64,000 nt of DNA from positions 1-64,000 of the forward strand of contig JACRDN010000017.1 in NCBI GenBank assembly GCA_016218575.1, in the 5' to 3' direction. A program made the translations under genes and the position numbers. This stretch comes from Elusimicrobiota bacterium (GTDB lineage Bacteria; Elusimicrobiota; Elusimicrobia; UBA1565; UBA9628). Of this stretch, positions 1,818 to 49,013 are shown in pieces. The notes under the pieces are model-generated. The model made no database searches. It was not told the origin of the DNA and worked only from the letters and a program-made list of their open reading frames with translations. Position 1 is the first letter of the stretch. Each line of letters begins with the position of its first letter.

Positions 1818-3274
1818 TCAGAACTCGCTTCGCTCCCTCTCCAACGGGCTTTCTCCATATTGGAGGAGCCAGGACCACCTTGTTCAACTGGCTTTTCGCG
1901 CGCCGCCATAAAGGCGTCTTCATCCTGCGCATCGAGGACACCGACGAAGTGCGCTCCACGAGTGATTCCGTTACAGCGATTTTGGATTCCATAAAGTGGC
2001 TCGGCCTCGATTGGGATGAAGGGCCCGCCGGTCTCGAGGGGGAGAAAGGCTCCTGCGGCCCCTACTACCAGATGCGGCGCCTGGAAACCTACCAAAAATA
2101 CTTAAAGCAGCTCCTGGATTCGGGCGCTGCCTACCTCTGCTACTGCAGCAAGGAGGACCTTGAGGCCATGCGGCGCCTGGCCGCCCTCGAGAAGCGCCCG
2201 CCCCGCTACGACGGGCGCTGCCGGGGGCTTGCCGAGAAGCAGAAGAGGGAGCACGAAGCCGCCGGGCGCAAGCCCTCCGTGCGCTTTCGCATGCCCGACG
2301 AGGGGGCGACCGTGGTGGACGACCTCATCCGCGGCCAAGTGAGTTTCGAGAACAAGCTCCTGCAGGACTTCGTGATCCAAAAGACCACCGGGGGCCCGAC
2401 CTACAACTTCGCCTGCGTGATCGACGATCATTTGATGGAGATCAGCCACGTGATACGCGGAGACGAGCATCTCTCCAACACCCCCTCCCAGCTCCAGCTC
2501 TACCGGGCTTTGGGGTGGGCGCCTCCGCAGTTTGCCCATCTTTCCATGATCCTGGGCCCGGACGGGGCCAAGCTCTCCAAACGCCATGGGGCGACCTCGG
2601 TCTTGGAGTACAAGCAGCAGGGCTATTTGCCGGCCGCCATGCGCAATTACCTGGCCCTCCTGGGCTGGTCCACCACGGACTCCCAGCAGCTCTTTACGCC
2701 CGAGGAGTTGGTGGCTAAATTCGACCTGGCCGGCTGCCAGAAAAACCCAGCCACCTTCGACCCCGTGAAGCTGACCTGGATGAACGGGGAATACATGAGG
2801 GGGATGCCCGTTTCCGAGCTGTTGAAGGAGGCGGAGCCTTTTCTCAAGGCCGCGGGCCTGCCGGCCGCGGGCGGCCCGAGTCTCGAGAAGGCCGCCGCCC
2901 TCGAGCACGAAAAGTACAAGCTTCTCTCGGAGATTCCCGGGCTCGTGGACTTTTTCTACAAGCCGGTGGAGTTCGCTCCCAGGGCTTTGGATAAAGTGCT
3001 GCGCGCGGAGGGGGTTCGGGGCATCCTCTTGGCCATGGCCGAGGAGTTGGAGCACGCGCCCGAGTTCACCGAGAGGGCCTTGGAGGAAAGGATCCGGCGG
3101 TTCTGCGCGGAGAAGGGGCTCAAGACGGGCCAGGTCTTCCATCCCCTGCGCGCGGCTTGCACGGGCCGCACCGAGGGGCCGACTTTATTCTTGATGCTGG
3201 AGGTCATGGGCCGGGAGACGGTGGTTTCGCGCTTGAAATCAGCCGCCGCCATGCTCTATACTATGCCACTATGA
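1814..3274 (+). CDS. gltX: Glutamate--tRNA ligase
   Basis: This is a class I aminoacyl-tRNA synthetase that charges tRNA-Glu (possibly also tRNA-Gln) in the cytoplasm. The 486 residues match the normal length. The HIGH-type motif appears as PSPTGFLHIGGART near residue 8 and the KMSKS-type motif as AKLSKRHGA near residue 255. The N-terminal Rossmann fold is followed by the usual helical anticodon-binding C-terminus. The gene sits between recN and a DksA-like gene, with 4-nt ATGA overlaps on both sides. Whether it is discriminating or non-discriminating cannot be decided, because no gatCAB or glnS is in the window. Confidence 0.97.
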   Translation: MIRTRFAPSPTGFLHIGGARTTLFNWLFARRHKGVFILRIEDTDEVRSTSDSVTAILDSIKWLGLDWDEGPAGLEGEKGSCGPYYQMRRLETYQKYLKQLLDSGAAYLCYCSKEDLEAMRRLAALEKRPPRYDGRCRGLAEKQKREHEAAGRKPSVRFRMPDEGATVVDDLIRGQVSFENKLLQDFVIQKTTGGPTYNFACVIDDHLMEISHVIRGDEHLSNTPSQLQLYRALGWAPPQFAHLSMILGPDGAKLSKRHGATSVLEYKQQGYLPAAMRNYLALLGWSTTDSQQLFTPEELVAKFDLAGCQKNPATFDPVKLTWMNGEYMRGMPVSELLKEAEPFLKAAGLPAAGGPSLEKAAALEHEKYKLLSEIPGLVDFFYKPVEFAPRALDKVLRAEGVRGILLAMAEELEHAPEFTERALEERIRRFCAEKGLKTGQVFHPLRAACTGRTEGPTLFLMLEVMGRETVVSRLKSAAAMLYTMPL

Positions 3275-3717
3275 AAACAAAAACCATGAAAAAGTCGGCC
3301 AAGCCCGCCGCGGGCAAACTGCGGCTGTCCTCGGTCCGCAAGAAGCTCCTGGCCATGCGAGATGATCTGGTCAAAACCGTGCGCAAGCAGAAGGTTCCGG
3401 AGATCGCCCTGCAGGATAGCGGCGATTCCGTGGACCAGGCCAGCCAATCCATAGAGAAAGAGCTCCTCTTCGAACTTTCCGACAACGAGCGGGTGACCTT
3501 GGACCAGGTGGAGGCAGCCCTGAGGAAGCTCGACAAGGGCAATTATGGGCTTTGCGAGGCCTGCCGCAACCCCATTGCCAAGCCGCGCCTGGACGCGCTG
3601 CCCTTCGCGCGCTACTGCATTTCCTGCCAGAGCAGCATGGAAAGCGCCCCGGAGACGGCCGAGTCCGCCCCTGATTTCCGAAACCTGGCGGATGAACCCG
3701 GCGGCCGAGAGGGCTAA
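3271..3717 (+). CDS. DksA/TraR-family zinc-finger protein
   Basis: This is a 148-residue protein with the C4 zinc finger of the DksA/TraR family: CEAC, 17 residues, then CISC at about residues 97-121. A basic N-terminus and a helical segment (VRKKLLAMRDDLVKTVRKQ) precede it. DksA-type proteins bind the RNA polymerase secondary channel and tune rRNA and stress promoters with ppGpp. Others of this type (YbiI- or YteA-like) are less understood, so no symbol is given. The start at 3271 is chosen because it overlaps the gltX stop as ATGA. An upstream in-frame start at 3157 would lie deep inside gltX. Confidence 0.85.
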   Translation: MKTKTMKKSAKPAAGKLRLSSVRKKLLAMRDDLVKTVRKQKVPEIALQDSGDSVDQASQSIEKELLFELSDNERVTLDQVEAALRKLDKGNYGLCEACRNPIAKPRLDALPFARYCISCQSSMESAPETAESAPDFRNLADEPGGREG

Positions 3718-3764: not shown

Positions 3765-5522
3765 ATGCGGTATTTCATCTACAAGAATGAGCAGATTCTG
3801 GGCCCCTTTTCCCCACAGGAAATGGAGCAAGCCGAGGACCTGCGCTCTGAAACCTTGGTCTGCGCCGAGACCGTTTCAGGACGGATGGAGTCGGACTGGA
3901 AATCCATCGAGGAAATCTCTGAGCTCTCGGATCTCAAATTCGCCCGACTCGTGGATTTGACGCCCAAGGAAGGGGAGGAGCCCGGCCTCATGGAAAGGCT
4001 CGAGCTTGAGACCTTCAGCGAGCCTCTGCCGGGGAAGGCTCCCGAGCGCGTCGTGTCCGAGCTGTTCCAAGACGGAAACATCCAGGAGCTATCCCAGGCC
4101 CAGGGCCAGGTTCGCGAGCTGACCGCGCAGATCAAGGCCCTGGAGGGCCGCTTGGCCAAGCTCCAGGCGGAGCGCGCGAGCTTCCAGGCCTCTTCGGCGC
4201 CCTTGGTTCCTCCCTCGGCCGAGGCCAAGCTCAAAAAAGAGATCAAGCTCGAGGCTCCCAAGACTTTCCGCGTCGTCAATAAAGGGCTTCCTTCGGAGAA
4301 GCCTCTTGCCGAGACCCCCGCCCCGGCCGAGGCCAAGCCAAAGAAGGAGATCAAGCTCAAGGCTCCTAAAACTCTTCGGGTTGTCAATAAAGCGCCGGAG
4401 GCCGAGACTCAGCCTCTTTCCATCGAGTCGAAAGCGCCCGAGAGCGAGCCCCCGCCAATTACTTTGAGCGTCGCGCAGCCCATGGGGCCCAACGCCGCAG
4501 CGCAGCCTCCTGCGGAGCTGGCGCCCGAGGCCGAGTCACTGCAGGAGCCGTCCCTCCAGGCGCCTGCGCCTGTGACTTCCATGTTCGCTCCAGAGGAGAC
4601 TCGCGAGCCTTTCCCTTCCACCGCTCCTCCGCTCACGATTTCGGTGTCGGGGGCCGGCCCAGCCATGGGATTCGACCGGCCGCTCACGGTTTCCCCTCCC
4701 GCCGCTCCGCCCCCGGTTCCGGGCATGGCGCCGCCTCCCCTTCCAGAGCCTCAGGAGGTCCTGGCTCGCCTGGCCAAGCCCGTCCCGGCGCCCTCGACGG
4801 CACCGGTTCGGGCGCCGAAGCGCCGCTTTTTCCTGTTTTTGATGGCGGGCCTGAGCCTCTTGGCGGGATTCCTGCTCTGGATGTTCCTTCGCAACTCTCG
4901 GGACTTGAAGCTCCTGGCCAACATGGGCGCCGATCAGAAGCCCCTGGGGGAGCAGCCCCTCGAGACGCAGGCTCCTTTGCCGCAACGGCCCCCGGACAAG
5001 TCGCTGGAGGCGGCCGTGGCCGGTCCCGCGCCGCGGGACTTGGGCGCGGAGGCTTTGAAGCTGGTCAAGGACTATCCCCTGGATGGGGACCGCGGCAGCG
5101 TGGGGCAGTGGCTGCAGTATTCCTTTACCGCAAATCCAGGCGAGGCCAACAAGGAGGAGTGGACCGCGGGGGCCGTGGAGTCCTCGGTCTACCTGGTCCA
5201 GTACCGTGTTCTTCCCGGAGCCCAGGGCAAGCTCAAGGAGCCGATCACTTATCTCTTCGAGGCCGATCTCTCCCGCAAGACGGTCAAGGCCAGCAACCCC
5301 GCGGCCCGGGAGCTTATGGCCGGAATGCCCGCGCCGGCGCCGGTTGTGGCGCCCAAGCCCGCCCCGCGCGCCCGCGCCAAGCCCCGCCGCCAGGCGCGCC
5401 GACCCCAGGCCAAGCGCAGGCAGGGAGCGCCCCAGCTTCCCCTTCCCTCCGACATGGAGCTCCTGCCCCCGGCTTCCGAGGATGGGGTGCCAGCCGACAA
5501 GGACGTCGAGCCCGCGCTTTAG
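3765..5522 (+). CDS. GYF_2-domain, membrane-anchored Pro/Lys-rich protein
   Basis: The role of this 585-residue protein is not recognised. Residues 1-55 (RYFIYKNEQILGPFSPQEM) look like a GYF_2 domain, a fold that binds proline-rich or other peptides. A coiled coil follows near residues 110-145. A Lys/Pro/Ala-rich linker contains a direct repeat: KKEIKLEAPKTFRVVNK recurs as KKEIKLKAPKTLRVVNK about 36 residues later. One transmembrane helix lies near residues 355-375 (FFLFLMAGLSLLAGFLLWMF). The remainder, presumably periplasmic, ends in a strongly basic Arg/Lys/Pro stretch. Similar GYF-plus-one-TM proteins occur in bacterial envelopes, but function is unassigned. Its stop overlaps that of the convergent gene. 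Confidence 0.75.
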   Translation: MRYFIYKNEQILGPFSPQEMEQAEDLRSETLVCAETVSGRMESDWKSIEEISELSDLKFARLVDLTPKEGEEPGLMERLELETFSEPLPGKAPERVVSELFQDGNIQELSQAQGQVRELTAQIKALEGRLAKLQAERASFQASSAPLVPPSAEAKLKKEIKLEAPKTFRVVNKGLPSEKPLAETPAPAEAKPKKEIKLKAPKTLRVVNKAPEAETQPLSIESKAPESEPPPITLSVAQPMGPNAAAQPPAELAPEAESLQEPSLQAPAPVTSMFAPEETREPFPSTAPPLTISVSGAGPAMGFDRPLTVSPPAAPPPVPGMAPPPLPEPQEVLARLAKPVPAPSTAPVRAPKRRFFLFLMAGLSLLAGFLLWMFLRNSRDLKLLANMGADQKPLGEQPLETQAPLPQRPPDKSLEAAVAGPAPRDLGAEALKLVKDYPLDGDRGSVGQWLQYSFTANPGEANKEEWTAGAVESSVYLVQYRVLPGAQGKLKEPITYLFEADLSRKTVKASNPAARELMAGMPAPAPVVAPKPAPRARAKPRRQARRPQAKRRQGAPQLPLPSDMELLPPASEDGVPADKDVEPAL

Positions 5523-6127
5523 GCGAGGGCTTCTTCGATTTTCTCGGCGGCCGCGTCCCAGTTCATGTCCGAGGTGTCGATGCATAGGCGGGGGATCCGG
5601 CTCAAAGACAAGCATTCGAAACGCCGGGCTTGCGATTCAACCAGGGCTTGGAGGGCTTTCTCCCGAGAGCCGAAATAAGAGAGCATCTCCTCCTTCCAAT
5701 CTGAATGGGCGCGCTCGGGCCGATCCAAGGTCCGTTTCTCGATTTCCTTATCAGGAAAATGGAGGAGAACAAGAAGGCAATTCATCGCCGCCAGCGCCGA
5801 ATCCACGTTGCGGTAGAGCCTCCAGTCGGGCATCAAGGCGTAGTAGCTGGGGTGGAATCTCTCGAGAACATACTTGAGCTTCTGGTCGTCCCGCCATGAC
5901 CTGGCCAGTTTTTGCGTCGCCCGGCGCAAAGGGGCGCAGTGCTGTATGTCCGTCAACACCGGCTCCCTGAGCTGGGCCATGAGGTTGTCCGGGAATGTTT
6001 GCTCCTCCCTTAGGACCAGGCCGCCACCCAGCCACCGGACGAAGCCCGGCCTCTTTAGTAGAGCCTCCAGGATGTTGCTTTTTCCGGCGCCGGCGACGCC
6101 CTCGATGATTAAGCCGTTGAGGGTCAT
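5519..6127 (-). CDS. P-loop nucleoside/thymidylate-kinase-like protein
   Basis: This is a 202-residue protein with Walker A IIEGVAGAGKSNILEALL at residues 7-24. It has the general layout of small P-loop kinases (deoxynucleoside or thymidylate kinase-like AAA_33/dNK folds). The middle holds YHPSYYALMPDWRLYRNVDS-like aromatic residues that could line a nucleoside pocket, and later segments are charged and helical. The substrate cannot be read from sequence. It is convergent with the GYF gene (4-nt overlap) and has its own upstream promoter. The ATG at 6127 has no ribosome binding site and lies eight bases from a -10 box. Confidence 0.65.
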   Translation of the reverse strand: MTLNGLIIEGVAGAGKSNILEALLKRPGFVRWLGGGLVLREEQTFPDNLMAQLREPVLTDIQHCAPLRRATQKLARSWRDDQKLKYVLERFHPSYYALMPDWRLYRNVDSALAAMNCLLVLLHFPDKEIEKRTLDRPERAHSDWKEEMLSYFGSREKALQALVESQARRFECLSLSRIPRLCIDTSDMNWDAAAEKIEEALA

Positions 6128-6135
6128 GCCACTGT

Positions 6136-6165
6136 ATTCTACTGCTTCCCTTAAAGGTAGTACAA
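6136..6165 (-). promoter_or_regulatory. Promoter for the P-loop kinase-like gene, probably leaderless
   Basis: On the minus strand TTGTAC (6165-6160), an 18-nt spacer and TAGAAT (6141-6136) precede the ATG by eight bases, the same geometry as other putative leaderless genes in the window. Confidence 0.5.
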
Positions 6166-6256
6166 CCTGCGCCGGCCCGTGTCACTCATTAGAGGTCCCC
6201 GTGTCGATGGGCAAACCTGGCGAGAACTGGTCAATCGGCCAGTTGAGCTGACTATC

Positions 6257-44746: not shown

Positions 44747-46819
44747 ATGAGGGTCCTTATCCCGGCGGTTTGGCTGTTCTTGCAGCCTTGCCTGTCTTCG
44801 GCCGTAAACGGGCGGTCGCCGCTGCCTCAGGGGGCGAGGCGCCCGACGCGCGATTTGCAGGCAACGCCGGCGGCCGCTTTGCCCGCTTCTGTCGTGCCTT
44901 CAGGGCAGAATCCGGTTCTCCATGTTCTGGCTCAAGGGCGCCCGGCCCGCTTGGCCTTTCAAACCGTTTTGGCCATGGCGGGTCTTGGATCCATCGATGC
45001 CAAACTCCATGCCGCCTATGCCGGCGCCAAGGCTCCTGACGCGGCGGACGCGGAGGCGGTTGCGCCCGCCGCAGCGCCTGTTGCCGCGCCGAGGAATATA
45101 TCCCCTTTAAGCCCTGGAAGAACGCTGCCCAGGGGTTATGATGTCGAGGCTCTTCACGCCGCAGGAGGCATGGCTCGGGTTTACCGGGTTCGCCATGTTC
45201 CATCCAACACCATCTGGGCTCTCAAGGAGCTCAACCCTTCTTCCGCTCAGTCCCAGGAAGAAAAAGGCCAATTTAGAAACGAATACGATTTGCTTGAGGG
45301 TTTAAATCACCCCAATCTGCCCCGGGTGAAGGAATCTTTTGAGCATGAGGGAAGGCTTTATATCGTTGAGGAATTCATCCAGGGCGAGACTTTGGAAAAG
45401 CGCTTGGAGGCGGGCCCCATGAGTTGGCGCGAGGCGGCTCAAATGGCCATCCCCTTGCTCAAGGTTCTGCACTATATCCATAGCAAGGGCATCGTTTACC
45501 GGGATATTAAGCCCAGCAATATCATGTTCCGCGAGGATGGAAGCCTGGTCCTCGTTGATTTTGGCGCGGCCCGCCGCTACAGCGCGGACCCTGCCAAGAC
45601 TCATGACACCATAGTCCTGGGAACCCCGGGGTTCGCTTCCCCGGAACAGCACGGTAAACAGCAGACCGACCGCCGTTCGGACATTTACAGTGCTGGGGTC
45701 TTGCTGCACCACGCGGCGACGGGACGGGACCCTAACGACAAGCCTTTCATTTTCGAGGATCCCCATGACATCGCCCCCGGCATTGATCCGGTTTTCAGTC
45801 AGGCGGTCATGAGGGCTTTGAAATTGGATCGGGAGAGCCGCTTTTCCACCGCCAAGGATATGCGCTGGGCCCTGGAGGCGGCGCTTGCCGCCAAGTCCGT
45901 CCCAGCCGCGGTGTCGGTCTCCATTCCGAGGCAGAATGCGCCGCAAGGGAGAATTCCCGCCGTCCCTCCACCGCTGCAAGCCGCTTTGAAGCCCGAGGAC
46001 GTCTTTGACGAGAGCCAAGTTGGGAGAGCAGGGCGGTTTGTCGCGATCGCACCCGGCGAGTTCATGATGGGAAGCCCGGGATCGGAGAATGGCCGCTTTT
46101 CTGACGAGGATCTTCATGCGGTGAAGCTCACTAAAGCCTTTGAAATGCAAGCCACTCCAGTGACCCAGCGGCAGTGGGTGGCGGTTATGGGCGGCAACCC
46201 GGCGTACTTTAAAGGAAGGCAACATTCCGATGGCGACCACATGATTCTCAATGGAGAGGAAGTCAACGCCGATCATCCCGTGGAGCAAGTTTCATGGGAA
46301 GATGCTCGGGAATTTATCAGGCGCCTCAACGCGATGCAAAGCCAGTATGCCTACAGGCTTCCCACCGAATCGGAGTGGGAGTACGCGGCTCGGGCGGGAA
46401 CCGAAGGGTCTTATTGGTTTTCGTCAGGTTTGCTGGATAAGCACGCCTGGCACGACGGAAATTCCGGGAAGCGCACTCATGCCGTGGGTCATCCCGACCA
46501 CTTCACCCCTCAGGGTCTGGGCGACATGTTGGGCCATGTTTGGGAATGGGTGGAGGATTTCTACGCCCCCTATCAGTTAGGCTTCGGGCTGGATTGGAAA
46601 GGTTGGTTGAATCAAGGGATCAGCCTATCCATAAAATTGTTGCCAAGCAGGCTTTTGAATATTGATCCCATAGGCTCCCCTACGGGCTCGTTCCGCGTCA
46701 TCCGTGGCGGGTCCTGGAGCTACGACGCCAGTTACCTGCGGTCCGCCTACCGCTACCTCGGCGGCCCGGGCGGCCGCTGGGACGATGTCGGGTTCCGCCT
46801 TGTGAGGTCAATCCGTTGA
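44747..46819 (+). CDS. DGR target: exported Ser/Thr kinase fused to variable FGE/C-type-lectin domain
   Basis: This 690-residue protein is the diversified product of the retroelement. An N-terminal signal-like segment (LIPAVWLFLQPCLSSAV) and an Ala/Pro-rich linker lead to a eukaryotic-like kinase at residues 130-390: glycine loop HAAGGMARVYRV, Lys in WALKELN, catalytic YRDIKPSNIMF (Asp 253), DFG in VLVDFGAARR (Asp 271) and GFASPEQ. Residues 425-690 are a formylglycine-generating-enzyme-like domain (FVAIAPGEFMMGSPGSENG, TPVTQRQWVAVMG, YRLPTESEWEYAAR, DMLGHVWEWVEDF, FRVIRGGSWS). The variable repeat is the last 42 codons and includes six Tyr/Phe at TR Asn positions. All kinase catalytic residues look intact. 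Confidence 0.9.
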   Translation: MRVLIPAVWLFLQPCLSSAVNGRSPLPQGARRPTRDLQATPAAALPASVVPSGQNPVLHVLAQGRPARLAFQTVLAMAGLGSIDAKLHAAYAGAKAPDAADAEAVAPAAAPVAAPRNISPLSPGRTLPRGYDVEALHAAGGMARVYRVRHVPSNTIWALKELNPSSAQSQEEKGQFRNEYDLLEGLNHPNLPRVKESFEHEGRLYIVEEFIQGETLEKRLEAGPMSWREAAQMAIPLLKVLHYIHSKGIVYRDIKPSNIMFREDGSLVLVDFGAARRYSADPAKTHDTIVLGTPGFASPEQHGKQQTDRRSDIYSAGVLLHHAATGRDPNDKPFIFEDPHDIAPGIDPVFSQAVMRALKLDRESRFSTAKDMRWALEAALAAKSVPAAVSVSIPRQNAPQGRIPAVPPPLQAALKPEDVFDESQVGRAGRFVAIAPGEFMMGSPGSENGRFSDEDLHAVKLTKAFEMQATPVTQRQWVAVMGGNPAYFKGRQHSDGDHMILNGEEVNADHPVEQVSWEDAREFIRRLNAMQSQYAYRLPTESEWEYAARAGTEGSYWFSSGLLDKHAWHDGNSGKRTHAVGHPDHFTPQGLGDMLGHVWEWVEDFYAPYQLGFGLDWKGWLNQGISLSIKLLPSRLLNIDPIGSPTGSFRVIRGGSWSYDASYLRSAYRYLGGPGGRWDDVGFRLVRSIR
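46681..46806 (+). repeat. DGR variable repeat (VR)
   Basis: These 126 nt at the 3' end of the target gene align without gaps to the template repeat 48827-48952. Fourteen positions differ; thirteen of them are A in the template, and the other is G to T in an AGG/AGT codon. The last 20 nt (GTCGGGTTCCGCCTTGTGAG) are identical and serve as the likely initiation-of-mutagenic-homology region. Confidence 0.97.
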
Positions 46820-46952: not shown

Positions 46953-47588
46953 ATGAAGCTTAAGGTATTTACGCTGCGCCTAAATTCAGGAACTGGCAGG
47001 TTCGATGAAAGCGGCCTGGACGAGTTCCAGTTGGGCAAGGATGTGATCGAGGCGACGGAGCATTTCATTGTCCATGAGAGAGCTCCGACGTTGATCTTGG
47101 TTGTGCGTTACCGCGAGGTGGCGGAGAACCTGCGCGCCTCGTCAGAGGCGCCGCGCAAGGATTGGCGCGGTGAACTCGACCCCGCGGGACAGCGAATCTA
47201 CGATGAGATGCGGCTGTGGCGAGGCCGCACGGCCAAGCGCGAAGGCATGCCGCCTTACCTTATCCTCAACAACCGCGAACTGGCCGAGTTGGCAATGAAA
47301 CGGCCGGTGTCGCTCGCGCAATTGCGCGAGATCAATGGAATCGGCGAGGCGAAATCGCAGAGATGGGGCGAGGAGATGCTGGCCGTGCTGGCAAAGCTGG
47401 GCGCTGCGGCAGCCGGCAGCGAGGTAGAAAACCTCGTCGAAAATCGGGGGGGGGGGGGGGTAATCCTTCGTGGCTTCTGTCGATTTACCGCTTTTCATCC
47501 ATTGGGAGAAGACCCTCAAGGATATCCTCTTGCGTACCGAAAAATTCCCCAAGCGCGTCCGCTTCACCATTTCTTCGCGCATCGATAA
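46953..47588 (+). CDS. HRDC-domain accessory protein of the DGR
   Basis: This 211-residue protein has an N-terminal region of beta-type segments (KLKVFTLRLNSGTGRFDESGLDEFQLGKDVIEATEHFIVHERAP, about residues 1-60). An HRDC domain follows (AGQRIYDEMRLWRGRTAKREGMPPYLILNNRELAELAMKRPVSLAQLREINGIGEAKSQRWGEEML, about 75-150). HRDC proteins are known DGR accessory factors and probably bind nucleic acid. A strong ribosome binding site (GGGAGAGGA) supports the start at 46953. After the domain the frame crosses a 15-G run and continues 42 codons overlapping avd. With 14 G the protein would stop at once (TAA at 47461), which is probably the natural end. Confidence 0.75.
   Translation: MKLKVFTLRLNSGTGRFDESGLDEFQLGKDVIEATEHFIVHERAPTLILVVRYREVAENLRASSEAPRKDWRGELDPAGQRIYDEMRLWRGRTAKREGMPPYLILNNRELAELAMKRPVSLAQLREINGIGEAKSQRWGEEMLAVLAKLGAAAAGSEVENLVENRGGGGVILRGFCRFTAFHPLGEDPQGYPLAYRKIPQARPLHHFFAHR
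47446..47460 (+). repeat. Poly-G(15) tract at the HRDC/avd junction
   Basis: Fifteen consecutive G residues lie ten bases before the GTG start of the avd gene. Length changes of one base would alter the end of the HRDC protein (stop, or two alternative tails) and shift the G-rich run relative to the avd start codon. Confidence 0.9.
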
Positions 47589-47814
47589 TCTGACGCTCGA
47601 CATCCTAGAGAAAATCATCGAGGCGCGCTACAGCAAGGATAAGACAGCGGCATTATCGCAAGCTAGCATCGCGCTGGAGAAGCTCAGGGTCCTCCTGAGG
47701 GTCAGCCATGAAGAACGCTATCTCGACCGCCGCGGCTTCGAGCATGTTTCGCGCCACATTGATGAAGCGGGACGGATGTTGGGCGGTTGGATGCGCAGCC
47801 GCAATCTCCCATGA
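47470..47814 (+). CDS. avd: Accessory variability determinant (Avd-like four-helix bundle)
   Basis: This 114-residue basic, all-helical protein (PLFIHWEKTLKDILLRTEKFPKRVRFTISSRIDNLTLDILEKIIEARYSKDKTAALSQASIALEKLRVLLRVSHEERYL) matches the Avd/four-helix-bundle family that works with DGR reverse transcriptases. Avd forms a pentameric barrel that binds the RT and template RNA in Bordetella phage BPP-1. The FPKxxRFTxSxRI pattern is typical. It starts at GTG 47470, just past the poly-G run, and ends in an ATGA overlap with the RT gene. Confidence 0.9.
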   Translation: MASVDLPLFIHWEKTLKDILLRTEKFPKRVRFTISSRIDNLTLDILEKIIEARYSKDKTAALSQASIALEKLRVLLRVSHEERYLDRRGFEHVSRHIDEAGRMLGGWMRSRNLP

Positions 47815-49013
47815 AACGAGAGGGCCATCTCTTCGGGCGCGTGGCGGACTTTCATTCGCTTTGCGCGGCGGTCAGGCGCGCCGCTCGCGGCAAGGGTTCA
47901 TCTCATTCAGCGGCGGAGTTTGTCTTTGGCATGGAGCGCGAGGTTCTGAAGCTTCAGCGGGAGATATTGGACGGCAGTTATAGGCCAAGGCCCTACAGGA
48001 CCTTCTACATATCCGACCCCAAGCCCAGGACGATCTCGGCCGCGGATTTCAGGGATCGGGTGGCGCATCACTCCCTCTGCGCGGTTCTGGAACCTCTTTT
48101 TGAGCGTGTCGCGATCTTCGATAGCTACGCCTGCCGTCTAGGCAAGGGTTCTCACGCGGCCGCGCGGAGGGCTCAGGCCTTCGGTCGGCGCTTCGGCCGA
48201 TTCCTCAAGCTCGATATCCGCAAATTCTTCGAGACGGCGGACCATGAAGTCTTGAAAATCGGTTTGAGGCGTTTGGTCAAGGATGCCAAGCTTCTTGAGC
48301 TGACCAGCCGCATCATCGACCATGGCGCGCCAGGCTCGGCGCCGGGCAAGGGGCTTCCAATAGGGAATCTGACGAGCCAGCATTTTGCGAACTTTTATCT
48401 TGCGTCTCTCGACCATTTTATAAAGGAAAAGCTTCGCGTACCTGGCTACCTGCGTTATATGGACGATTTCCTGCTGTTCGCGGATTCGAAGCGGTTCCTG
48501 AGCGAGGGGCGCCAGAGCATTCAGGAATTTGTGGGCAATGACCTCAAGCTCAGCATCAAATCAGAGGCGACCGTCCATGCCCCGGTCTCTGAGGGCATTC
48601 CCTTTCTGGGCTTGCGAATCTGGCCGCGGCTTGTCCGTCTGGATGGGTCAAACAAGCGGAGATTGATAAGCGCGTTGCGCGCGGGGACCAAAAGCCTTAC
48701 CAGCGGCGAACTGGAGGAGGATTTGGTTTCGTCTCTTAGGAGCCGCTTGGGCCATGCCGAACATGCGGACACGCTCAATTTCAGGCGTTCGCTTGGAGAG
48801 TTATGCGAATCTAGGTCGGGGAGCAATACAGGCTCGAACCGCGTCATCCGTGGCGGGTCCTGGAGCAACGACGCCAGGAACCTGCGGTCCGCCAACCGCA
48901 ACAACGACGGCCCGGGCGACCGCTGGAACAATGTCGGGTTCCGCCTTGTGAGCTCACGCCCAACGGCCGGATGCCTCGCGTCCACGGATGCAAGGCCAGC
49001 GCCCAGGACATGA
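47811..49013 (+). CDS. DGR reverse transcriptase
   Basis: This 400-residue RT uses the template-repeat RNA to make A-mutagenised cDNA. It has RT motifs in order: LKLDIRKFFETADHEVL, the DGR-specific IGNLTSQHFANFYL (IGxxxSQ in place of the QGxxxSP of other RTs), the active site RYMDDFLLFAD (residues 216-219), and FLGLRIWPR. The ATG at 47811 overlaps the avd stop. The last 60 codons read through the template repeat in the same frame as the target protein. The RT therefore carries a C-terminal copy of the variable region (SNRVIRGGSWSNDARNLRSA) and then a short tail. Confidence 0.95.
   Translation: MKREGHLFGRVADFHSLCAAVRRAARGKGSSHSAAEFVFGMEREVLKLQREILDGSYRPRPYRTFYISDPKPRTISAADFRDRVAHHSLCAVLEPLFERVAIFDSYACRLGKGSHAAARRAQAFGRRFGRFLKLDIRKFFETADHEVLKIGLRRLVKDAKLLELTSRIIDHGAPGSAPGKGLPIGNLTSQHFANFYLASLDHFIKEKLRVPGYLRYMDDFLLFADSKRFLSEGRQSIQEFVGNDLKLSIKSEATVHAPVSEGIPFLGLRIWPRLVRLDGSNKRRLISALRAGTKSLTSGELEEDLVSSLRSRLGHAEHADTLNFRRSLGELCESRSGSNTGSNRVIRGGSWSNDARNLRSANRNNDGPGDRWNNVGFRLVSSRPTAGCLASTDARPAPRT
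48827..48952 (+). repeat. DGR template repeat (TR)
   Basis: This 126-nt repeat contains 25 adenines, with seven AAC codons and one AAT, the codon type preferred in templates because A changes give many residues without stops. It lies inside the 3' end of the RT gene. Thirteen of the 25 A positions are changed in the VR, against one of 101 non-A positions. Confidence 0.97.

Follow-up and report, generated by a model that had tools for sequence, protein, structure and literature searches.

The gene at 44747..46819 on the forward strand of the window (the whole 64,000-nucleotide stretch analysed) is an open reading frame for a 690-residue protein, P0001, whose domains were assigned with Pfam and NCBIfam and which stands at the head of a one-strand DGR cassette ordered target-HRDC-Avd-RT. 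An HRDC-domain accessory gene (46953..47588, forward strand, its conserved part stopping at about 47432) is followed on the same strand by avd, the DGR accessory variability determinant (47470..47814; NF033474, E=4.2e-28, above the cut-off), and by a DGR reverse transcriptase (RT; 47811..48830; RVT_1, E=3.5e-13) with the motifs IGNLTSQ and YMDD. Homologues of this RT sit in DGRs. The RT reading frame stays open across the template repeat (TR; 48827..48956, forward strand, with many AAC codons) as far as 49013.

Direct comparison of the TR with the variable repeat (VR; 46681..46810, forward strand) gives 88% identity. Over 46690-46810, 12 of the 24 TR adenines are changed as against 2 of the 97 other bases (Fisher p=1.7e-8). 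The adenine positions alter residues 649, 659, 663, 668, 670-672, 676, 679 and 680 of P0001, and the one non-adenine change in its VR falls at residue 662. A strict TR/VR filter that counts flanks missed some pairs, including this one, which is clear when the two repeats are compared directly. With an RT beside the target, an adenine-specific TR/VR pair, Avd and HRDC, 44747-46819 is, on this sequence evidence, a genuine DGR target, as the earlier note had held. No second VR for this TR was found elsewhere in the 2.82-Mb genome. Viral relatives were found neither for P0001 in IMG/VR nor for the HRDC protein, and scans for sigma-70 promoters and terminators gave nothing exceeding chance.

P0001 consists of a signal-peptide-like (SP-like) N-terminus, a Hanks-type Ser/Thr kinase and an FGE-type C-type-lectin domain. 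The kinase domain, residues 125-389 (45119..45913, forward strand), is delimited by the NCBIfam PknB match; Pfam Pkinase covers residues 140-330 (E=4.7e-43). The Lys, Glu, HRD Asp, Asn and DFG Asp that mark a Hanks-type Ser/Thr kinase are all there, as K160 (WALKEL), E179 (RNEYDLL), D253 and N258 (YRDIKPSN) and D271 (LVDFG), so that the Lys, HRD-type and DFG residues had rightly been called intact; in the Gly-rich loop (AAGGMARVY) Ala replaces the first Gly. The nearest solved structures are PknB-type kinases. An AlphaFold2 model of the whole protein (17-row alignment, mean pLDDT 61) is good in the kinase N-lobe and poor in the C-lobe and FGE domain; compared with solved structures it matches the PknB fold (TMt 0.72, for a low-confidence model), and because the model is weak it is taken as fold support only.

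The FGE-type domain with its C-type-lectin fold (residues 430-687; 46034..46807, forward strand) was assigned from Pfam, PDB match and cysteine count. It matches FGE-sulfatase (PF03781, E=7.6e-40), and among PDB sequences it best matches 2y3c, a DGR variable protein of Treponema denticola (E=1.4e-21). The C-terminal FGE/CLec domain ends in the VR (residues 646-688), as in DGR variable proteins of the FGE subtype of CLec, and the variable FGE/C-type-lectin domain of the first description is confirmed. There is no cysteine in the domain and the catalytic Cys pair of formylglycine-generating enzyme is absent. Because these active-site cysteines are missing, FGE enzyme activity was ruled out, and this part of P0001 is a predicted binding module rather than a formylglycine-generating enzyme.

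The N-terminus reads MR-VLIPAVWLFL-QPCLSSA/VNG, the slash marking a possible cleavage site. Residues 1-19 (44747..44803, forward strand), with VLIPAVWLFL as h-region and cleavage at SSA/V, form a signal-peptide-like segment by a crude rule that accepts 1.6% of positions internal to genes of the window too, and it is by this rule that the signal-like hydrophobic start was upheld. The hydrophobic stretch, with a KD19 of 1.5, is both short and interrupted, and the arginines R23, R31, R32 and R35 come directly after it. Taking a 19-residue Kyte-Doolittle mean (KD19) of at least 1.6 to denote a membrane helix, no helix-like segment was found past the N-terminus (residues 22-690), the maximum being 1.36 in the kinase C-lobe; the earlier statement that there is no clear second membrane helix is thereby borne out. 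The helix between kinase and FGE that makes a transmembrane receptor kinase is absent, and the two domains are therefore placed on one side of the membrane. The term receptor kinase, which the earlier note had used for P0001, was accordingly dropped, since without a helix ligand binding outside cannot reach a kinase inside.

The mature chain of about 672 residues has 0 cysteines against 9.9 expected (P about 5e-5), the expectation being derived from cytosolic-type genes of the window. The FGE domains nearest to that of P0001 nearly all follow either a helix or an SP-like start; their cysteine number is even in most cases, P0001 having none. Given the SP-like start, the exported FGE relatives, the zero cysteine count and four kinase relatives of like layout, P0001 is likely to be exported. 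The arginines R23, R31, R32 and R35 weigh against export, being unusual for Sec-cleaved signals, and they favour an N-out/C-in orientation if the segment remains as an anchor. Possible downstream starts are a GTG at codon 50 and an ATG at codon 77, and translation may begin at either. ATP is normally not expected outside the cell; of the two parts of the earlier remark on this, export is judged likely from the features just given, and the puzzle of the ATP source stands if P0001 is indeed exported.

The four kinase relatives are L023 from the same genome and L026, L027 and L028 from a related genome (G001), all with an SP-like start and no second helix. Read from the sequences, a clear N-in charge bias is present in three of these five subfamily kinases. 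The kinase domain is free of cysteine in 5/5 subfamily members versus 7/56 other kinases (Fisher p=1.3e-4), a comparison between five related sequences and 56 best hits, the latter not being a random sample. A membrane helix precedes the kinase in about 51 of those 56, which puts their kinase inside; the signal-less relatives of the P0001 kinase type, L311 and L312, are cytosolic. On the subfamily profile the five seeds score 343-424 bits, seed rows matching their own profile by construction, and the next sequence among 336 genomes scores 233, so the exported-looking kinase group is small.

No true orthologue of P0001 carrying a VR was found, and the SP-kinase-FGE order is common to P0001 and one paralogue only, L023. 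Loss of kinase residues, which had been thought telling if it occurred in orthologues, is seen in part: the catalytic residues are retained in P0001 and L026 and mostly in L027 (DLG), but the L023 kinase is partly degraded, with DGG and a degenerate Gly loop, although its SP and the succession of kinase and FGE are preserved. This second SP-kinase-FGE fusion adjoins an exported sulfatase-like gene (4348-6249 and 1958-3349 in G000:C3). The L027 kinase is preceded by a different exported N-terminal module, which in L294 has its own SP and is followed by later helices; among 57 relatives this module (L027 residues 1-421; L293-L296) was found only in P0001's own genome and G001.

Protein identities lead us to place the genome in the phylum Elusimicrobiota. 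GltX of the window is 70% identical in 'Elusimicrobia bacterium NC_groundwater_1678_Pr3_B-0.1um_69_20' (L092), a value lying between those of a same-family genome (77%) and a same-class genome (61%), with 39-45% in genomes from other phyla; a second long protein is in agreement, at 52% in that bacterium and 50% in the same-family genome. We searched 341 genomes of the phylum with Avd and 235 genomes of the class with the window RT, and found eight DGRs across seven genomes, that of the window and seven with RTs 69-76% identical. The HRDC-Avd-RT order is constant across all eight. Their targets vary ahead of the FGE domain: SP-FGE at L105 and L108, a short N-terminal hydrophobic segment and FGE at L109, SP-PKD-FGE at L110, and zinc ribbon, helices and FGE at L104; the target at L111 is cut by a contig end. 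The seventh, L106 (G044:C124, 4105-8325), is a 1406-residue protein of the order TPR-kinase-WD40-helix (983-1001)-FGE with a clear VR/TR pair (25/31 adenines changed, 3 other changes). A kinase-FGE fusion beside another DGR RT, for which the earlier note had suggested looking, thus exists together with its TR/VR pair, and its layout is a predicted straightforward receptor kinase, with the kinase inside and the variable lectin outside.

A further DGR target in the same genome as L106, L103 (G044:C139, 8603-10918), has the order SP-caspase-FGE, with 23/32 adenines and 4 other bases changed between VR and TR; its caspase-like domain scores for PADLOC caspase (E=2.9e-12) and has GHG and DACFSG. 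From the kinase target of L106 and the caspase target of L103 it follows that the phylum has more than once joined the variable FGE domain to a signalling or effector domain. P0001 is, by its predicted topology, the kinase version of the phylum's FGE targets without a membrane crossing. Elsewhere, the RT reading frame at L288 (G016:C28, 4464-6323) is 619 residues long, about 300 of which are additional sequence N-terminal to the RT domain.

Kinase-lectin DGR targets are already known. Cyanobacterial DGR variable proteins with an N-terminal Ser/Thr kinase and a C-terminal CLec are mostly predicted to be cytosolic (Vallota-Eastman 2020, PMC7517822). P0001 resembles them in architecture, which alone was compared, having an N-terminal Hanks kinase and a DGR-diversified C-type-lectin C-terminus, and caspase versions of DGR targets occur in cyanobacteria and Elusimicrobiota alike; P0001 differs in its signal-like start, its lack of helix and cysteine, its phylum and its HRDC-Avd-RT cassette. 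The TvpA DGR of Treponema denticola (2y3c; PMC4891356) shares with the window the FGE-type variable domain and the HRDC accessory gene, and its targets are exported (PMC4891356), but TvpA has a lipoprotein signal and no kinase, whereas P0001 has a kinase and no lipobox was seen in it. In Planctomycetota every STK kinase domain is predicted to be cytoplasmic, which we count against an exported kinase; the single-pass STKs with periplasmic FGE found there (PMC11032199) and the L106 protein join kinase and FGE in one chain as P0001 does, but with a helix between the domains and the kinase in the cytosol.

A chlamydial kinase with a C-terminal DUF323/NirV domain of FGE type has the same order of an N-terminal kinase and a C-terminal FGE-type domain, but in contrast to P0001 its description contains no DGR target status (PMC1262709). 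The DGR of Prosthecochloris aestuarii pPAES01 (L310) repeats the FGE target-HRDC-Avd-RT order of the window, with an RT 54% identical, but its target is FGE-only and it has no homopolymer between HRDC and avd. DGR targets often carry a signal peptide or an N-terminal helix (PMC8144416). Our literature search found no DGR target that is an SP-bearing kinase without a crossing helix, and it is in this combination of an SP-like start and no crossing helix that P0001 is new.

From established DGR knowledge, the TR RNA would be copied by RT and Avd, with HRDC presumably assisting, and the cDNA would replace the VR to give new lectin surfaces. This one-target DGR would rewrite about a dozen FGE/lectin residues (646-680) of P0001. 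The protein would be secreted via Sec by its N-terminal signal, and kinase and variable lectin would leave together, as a single chain, for the periplasm, the surface or the medium. There the variable domain would pick a binding partner, and the tethered kinase would phosphorylate the captured partner, or itself, where it met ATP, which might be released from lysed neighbours or be found inside a contacted cell. On balance we lean towards such an exported P0001, in which the DGR-varied lectin selects the partner and the kinase phosphorylates that partner or itself. Its weakest step is the phosphorylation where ATP is met, which even given export is doubtful.

Alternatively, P0001 could be cytosolic or anchored in the inner membrane, either with residues 1-19 as an uncleaved N-out/C-in anchor or through a downstream start, the lectin sensing an intracellular or invader ligand and activating the kinase. 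We consider this rather unlikely: the arginine-rich flank C-terminal of the hydrophobic segment, an ordinary ATP supply, the mostly cytosolic kinase-CLec targets of cyanobacteria (PMC7517822) and the cytosolic nearest SP-less kinases would all suit it, but the near FGE relatives are exported, the cysteine count is zero, and SP-like starts occur in 5/5 of the kinase subfamily, three with clear N-in charge bias. An exported P0001 might also have a kinase domain that carries out no phosphotransfer and serves passively, as a structural or nucleotide-binding scaffold on which the lectin is displayed. The lack of ATP outside is in keeping with this, as are the DLG of L027 and above all L023, which lost its DFG and Gly loop yet retains its SP and domain order; P0001, however, and L026 likewise, retain all catalytic residues except the first loop Gly, and we judge a passive kinase to be quite improbable. 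Last, a receptor kinase whose membrane crossing had gone undetected, kinase inside and FGE outside, would have counterparts at the sibling DGR of L106, with its helix at 983-1001, and in Planctomycetota (PMC11032199), but residues 22-690 of P0001 hold no helix-like segment, and we give this reading hardly any weight.

Were the kinase of an exported P0001 to work outside, it would break with the rule by which a bacterial Hanks kinase is active in places supplied with ATP, and programmed hypermutation would be choosing an enzyme's partner. Were P0001 cytosolic, the cyanobacterial pattern of DGR-tuned kinases would extend to Elusimicrobiota. In both cases, the sibling DGRs, with their receptor-kinase and exported caspase layouts, have the variable lectin end paired with varied signalling and effector domains in this lineage.

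We examined the junction of HRDC and avd, where a G15 homopolymer (47446..47460, forward strand) was noted by counting runs in the genome. It is the longest of three G/C runs of at least 11 in its own genome, and in G015 the sole G/C run of at least 11 sits at the same junction. Six of the eight sibling DGRs have a junction tract (G15 in the window, G13, G11, G11, C13 and a GA repeat) and two have none; the sibling tracts lie at 8374 in L104, 2677 in L105, 8959 in L106 and 8347 in L109, and before 1903 in L108. In 835 kb of lineage sequence, 5/6 G/C runs of at least 10 are at the HRDC-avd junction, the sixth immediately preceding the L109 target gene. In 7/8 DGRs the avd frame contains a stop codon 6 or 9 bases upstream of the avd start. 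HRDC terminates at this stop in three (L104, L108 and L111), and in four others (the window, L105, L106 and L109) its frame is shifted and extends 70-118 bases into avd, the HRDC frame of the window continuing past the G tract into avd out of frame. The HRDC frame overlaps avd in Prosthecochloris too, without any tract.

Slippage in the junction tract may couple or uncouple Avd-RT translation, a possible phase-variable control of hypermutation, for which our literature search found no paper tying DGRs to such tracts; the same appearance would result from a stretched Shine-Dalgarno site or from a tract length wrongly assembled. Because the tract is slippable, an on/off switch of a hypermutable kinase can be envisaged. 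The full picture, an active kinase, secreted or at the surface, whose targets are rewritten by the DGR in an antibody-like, hypermutable manner, possibly with the G tract as its switch, is unlikely in our estimation. One more rare poly-C/G run of the same genome lies within an 870-residue response-regulator/histidine-kinase-like reading frame (L372, at about 1920; G000:C19:432919).
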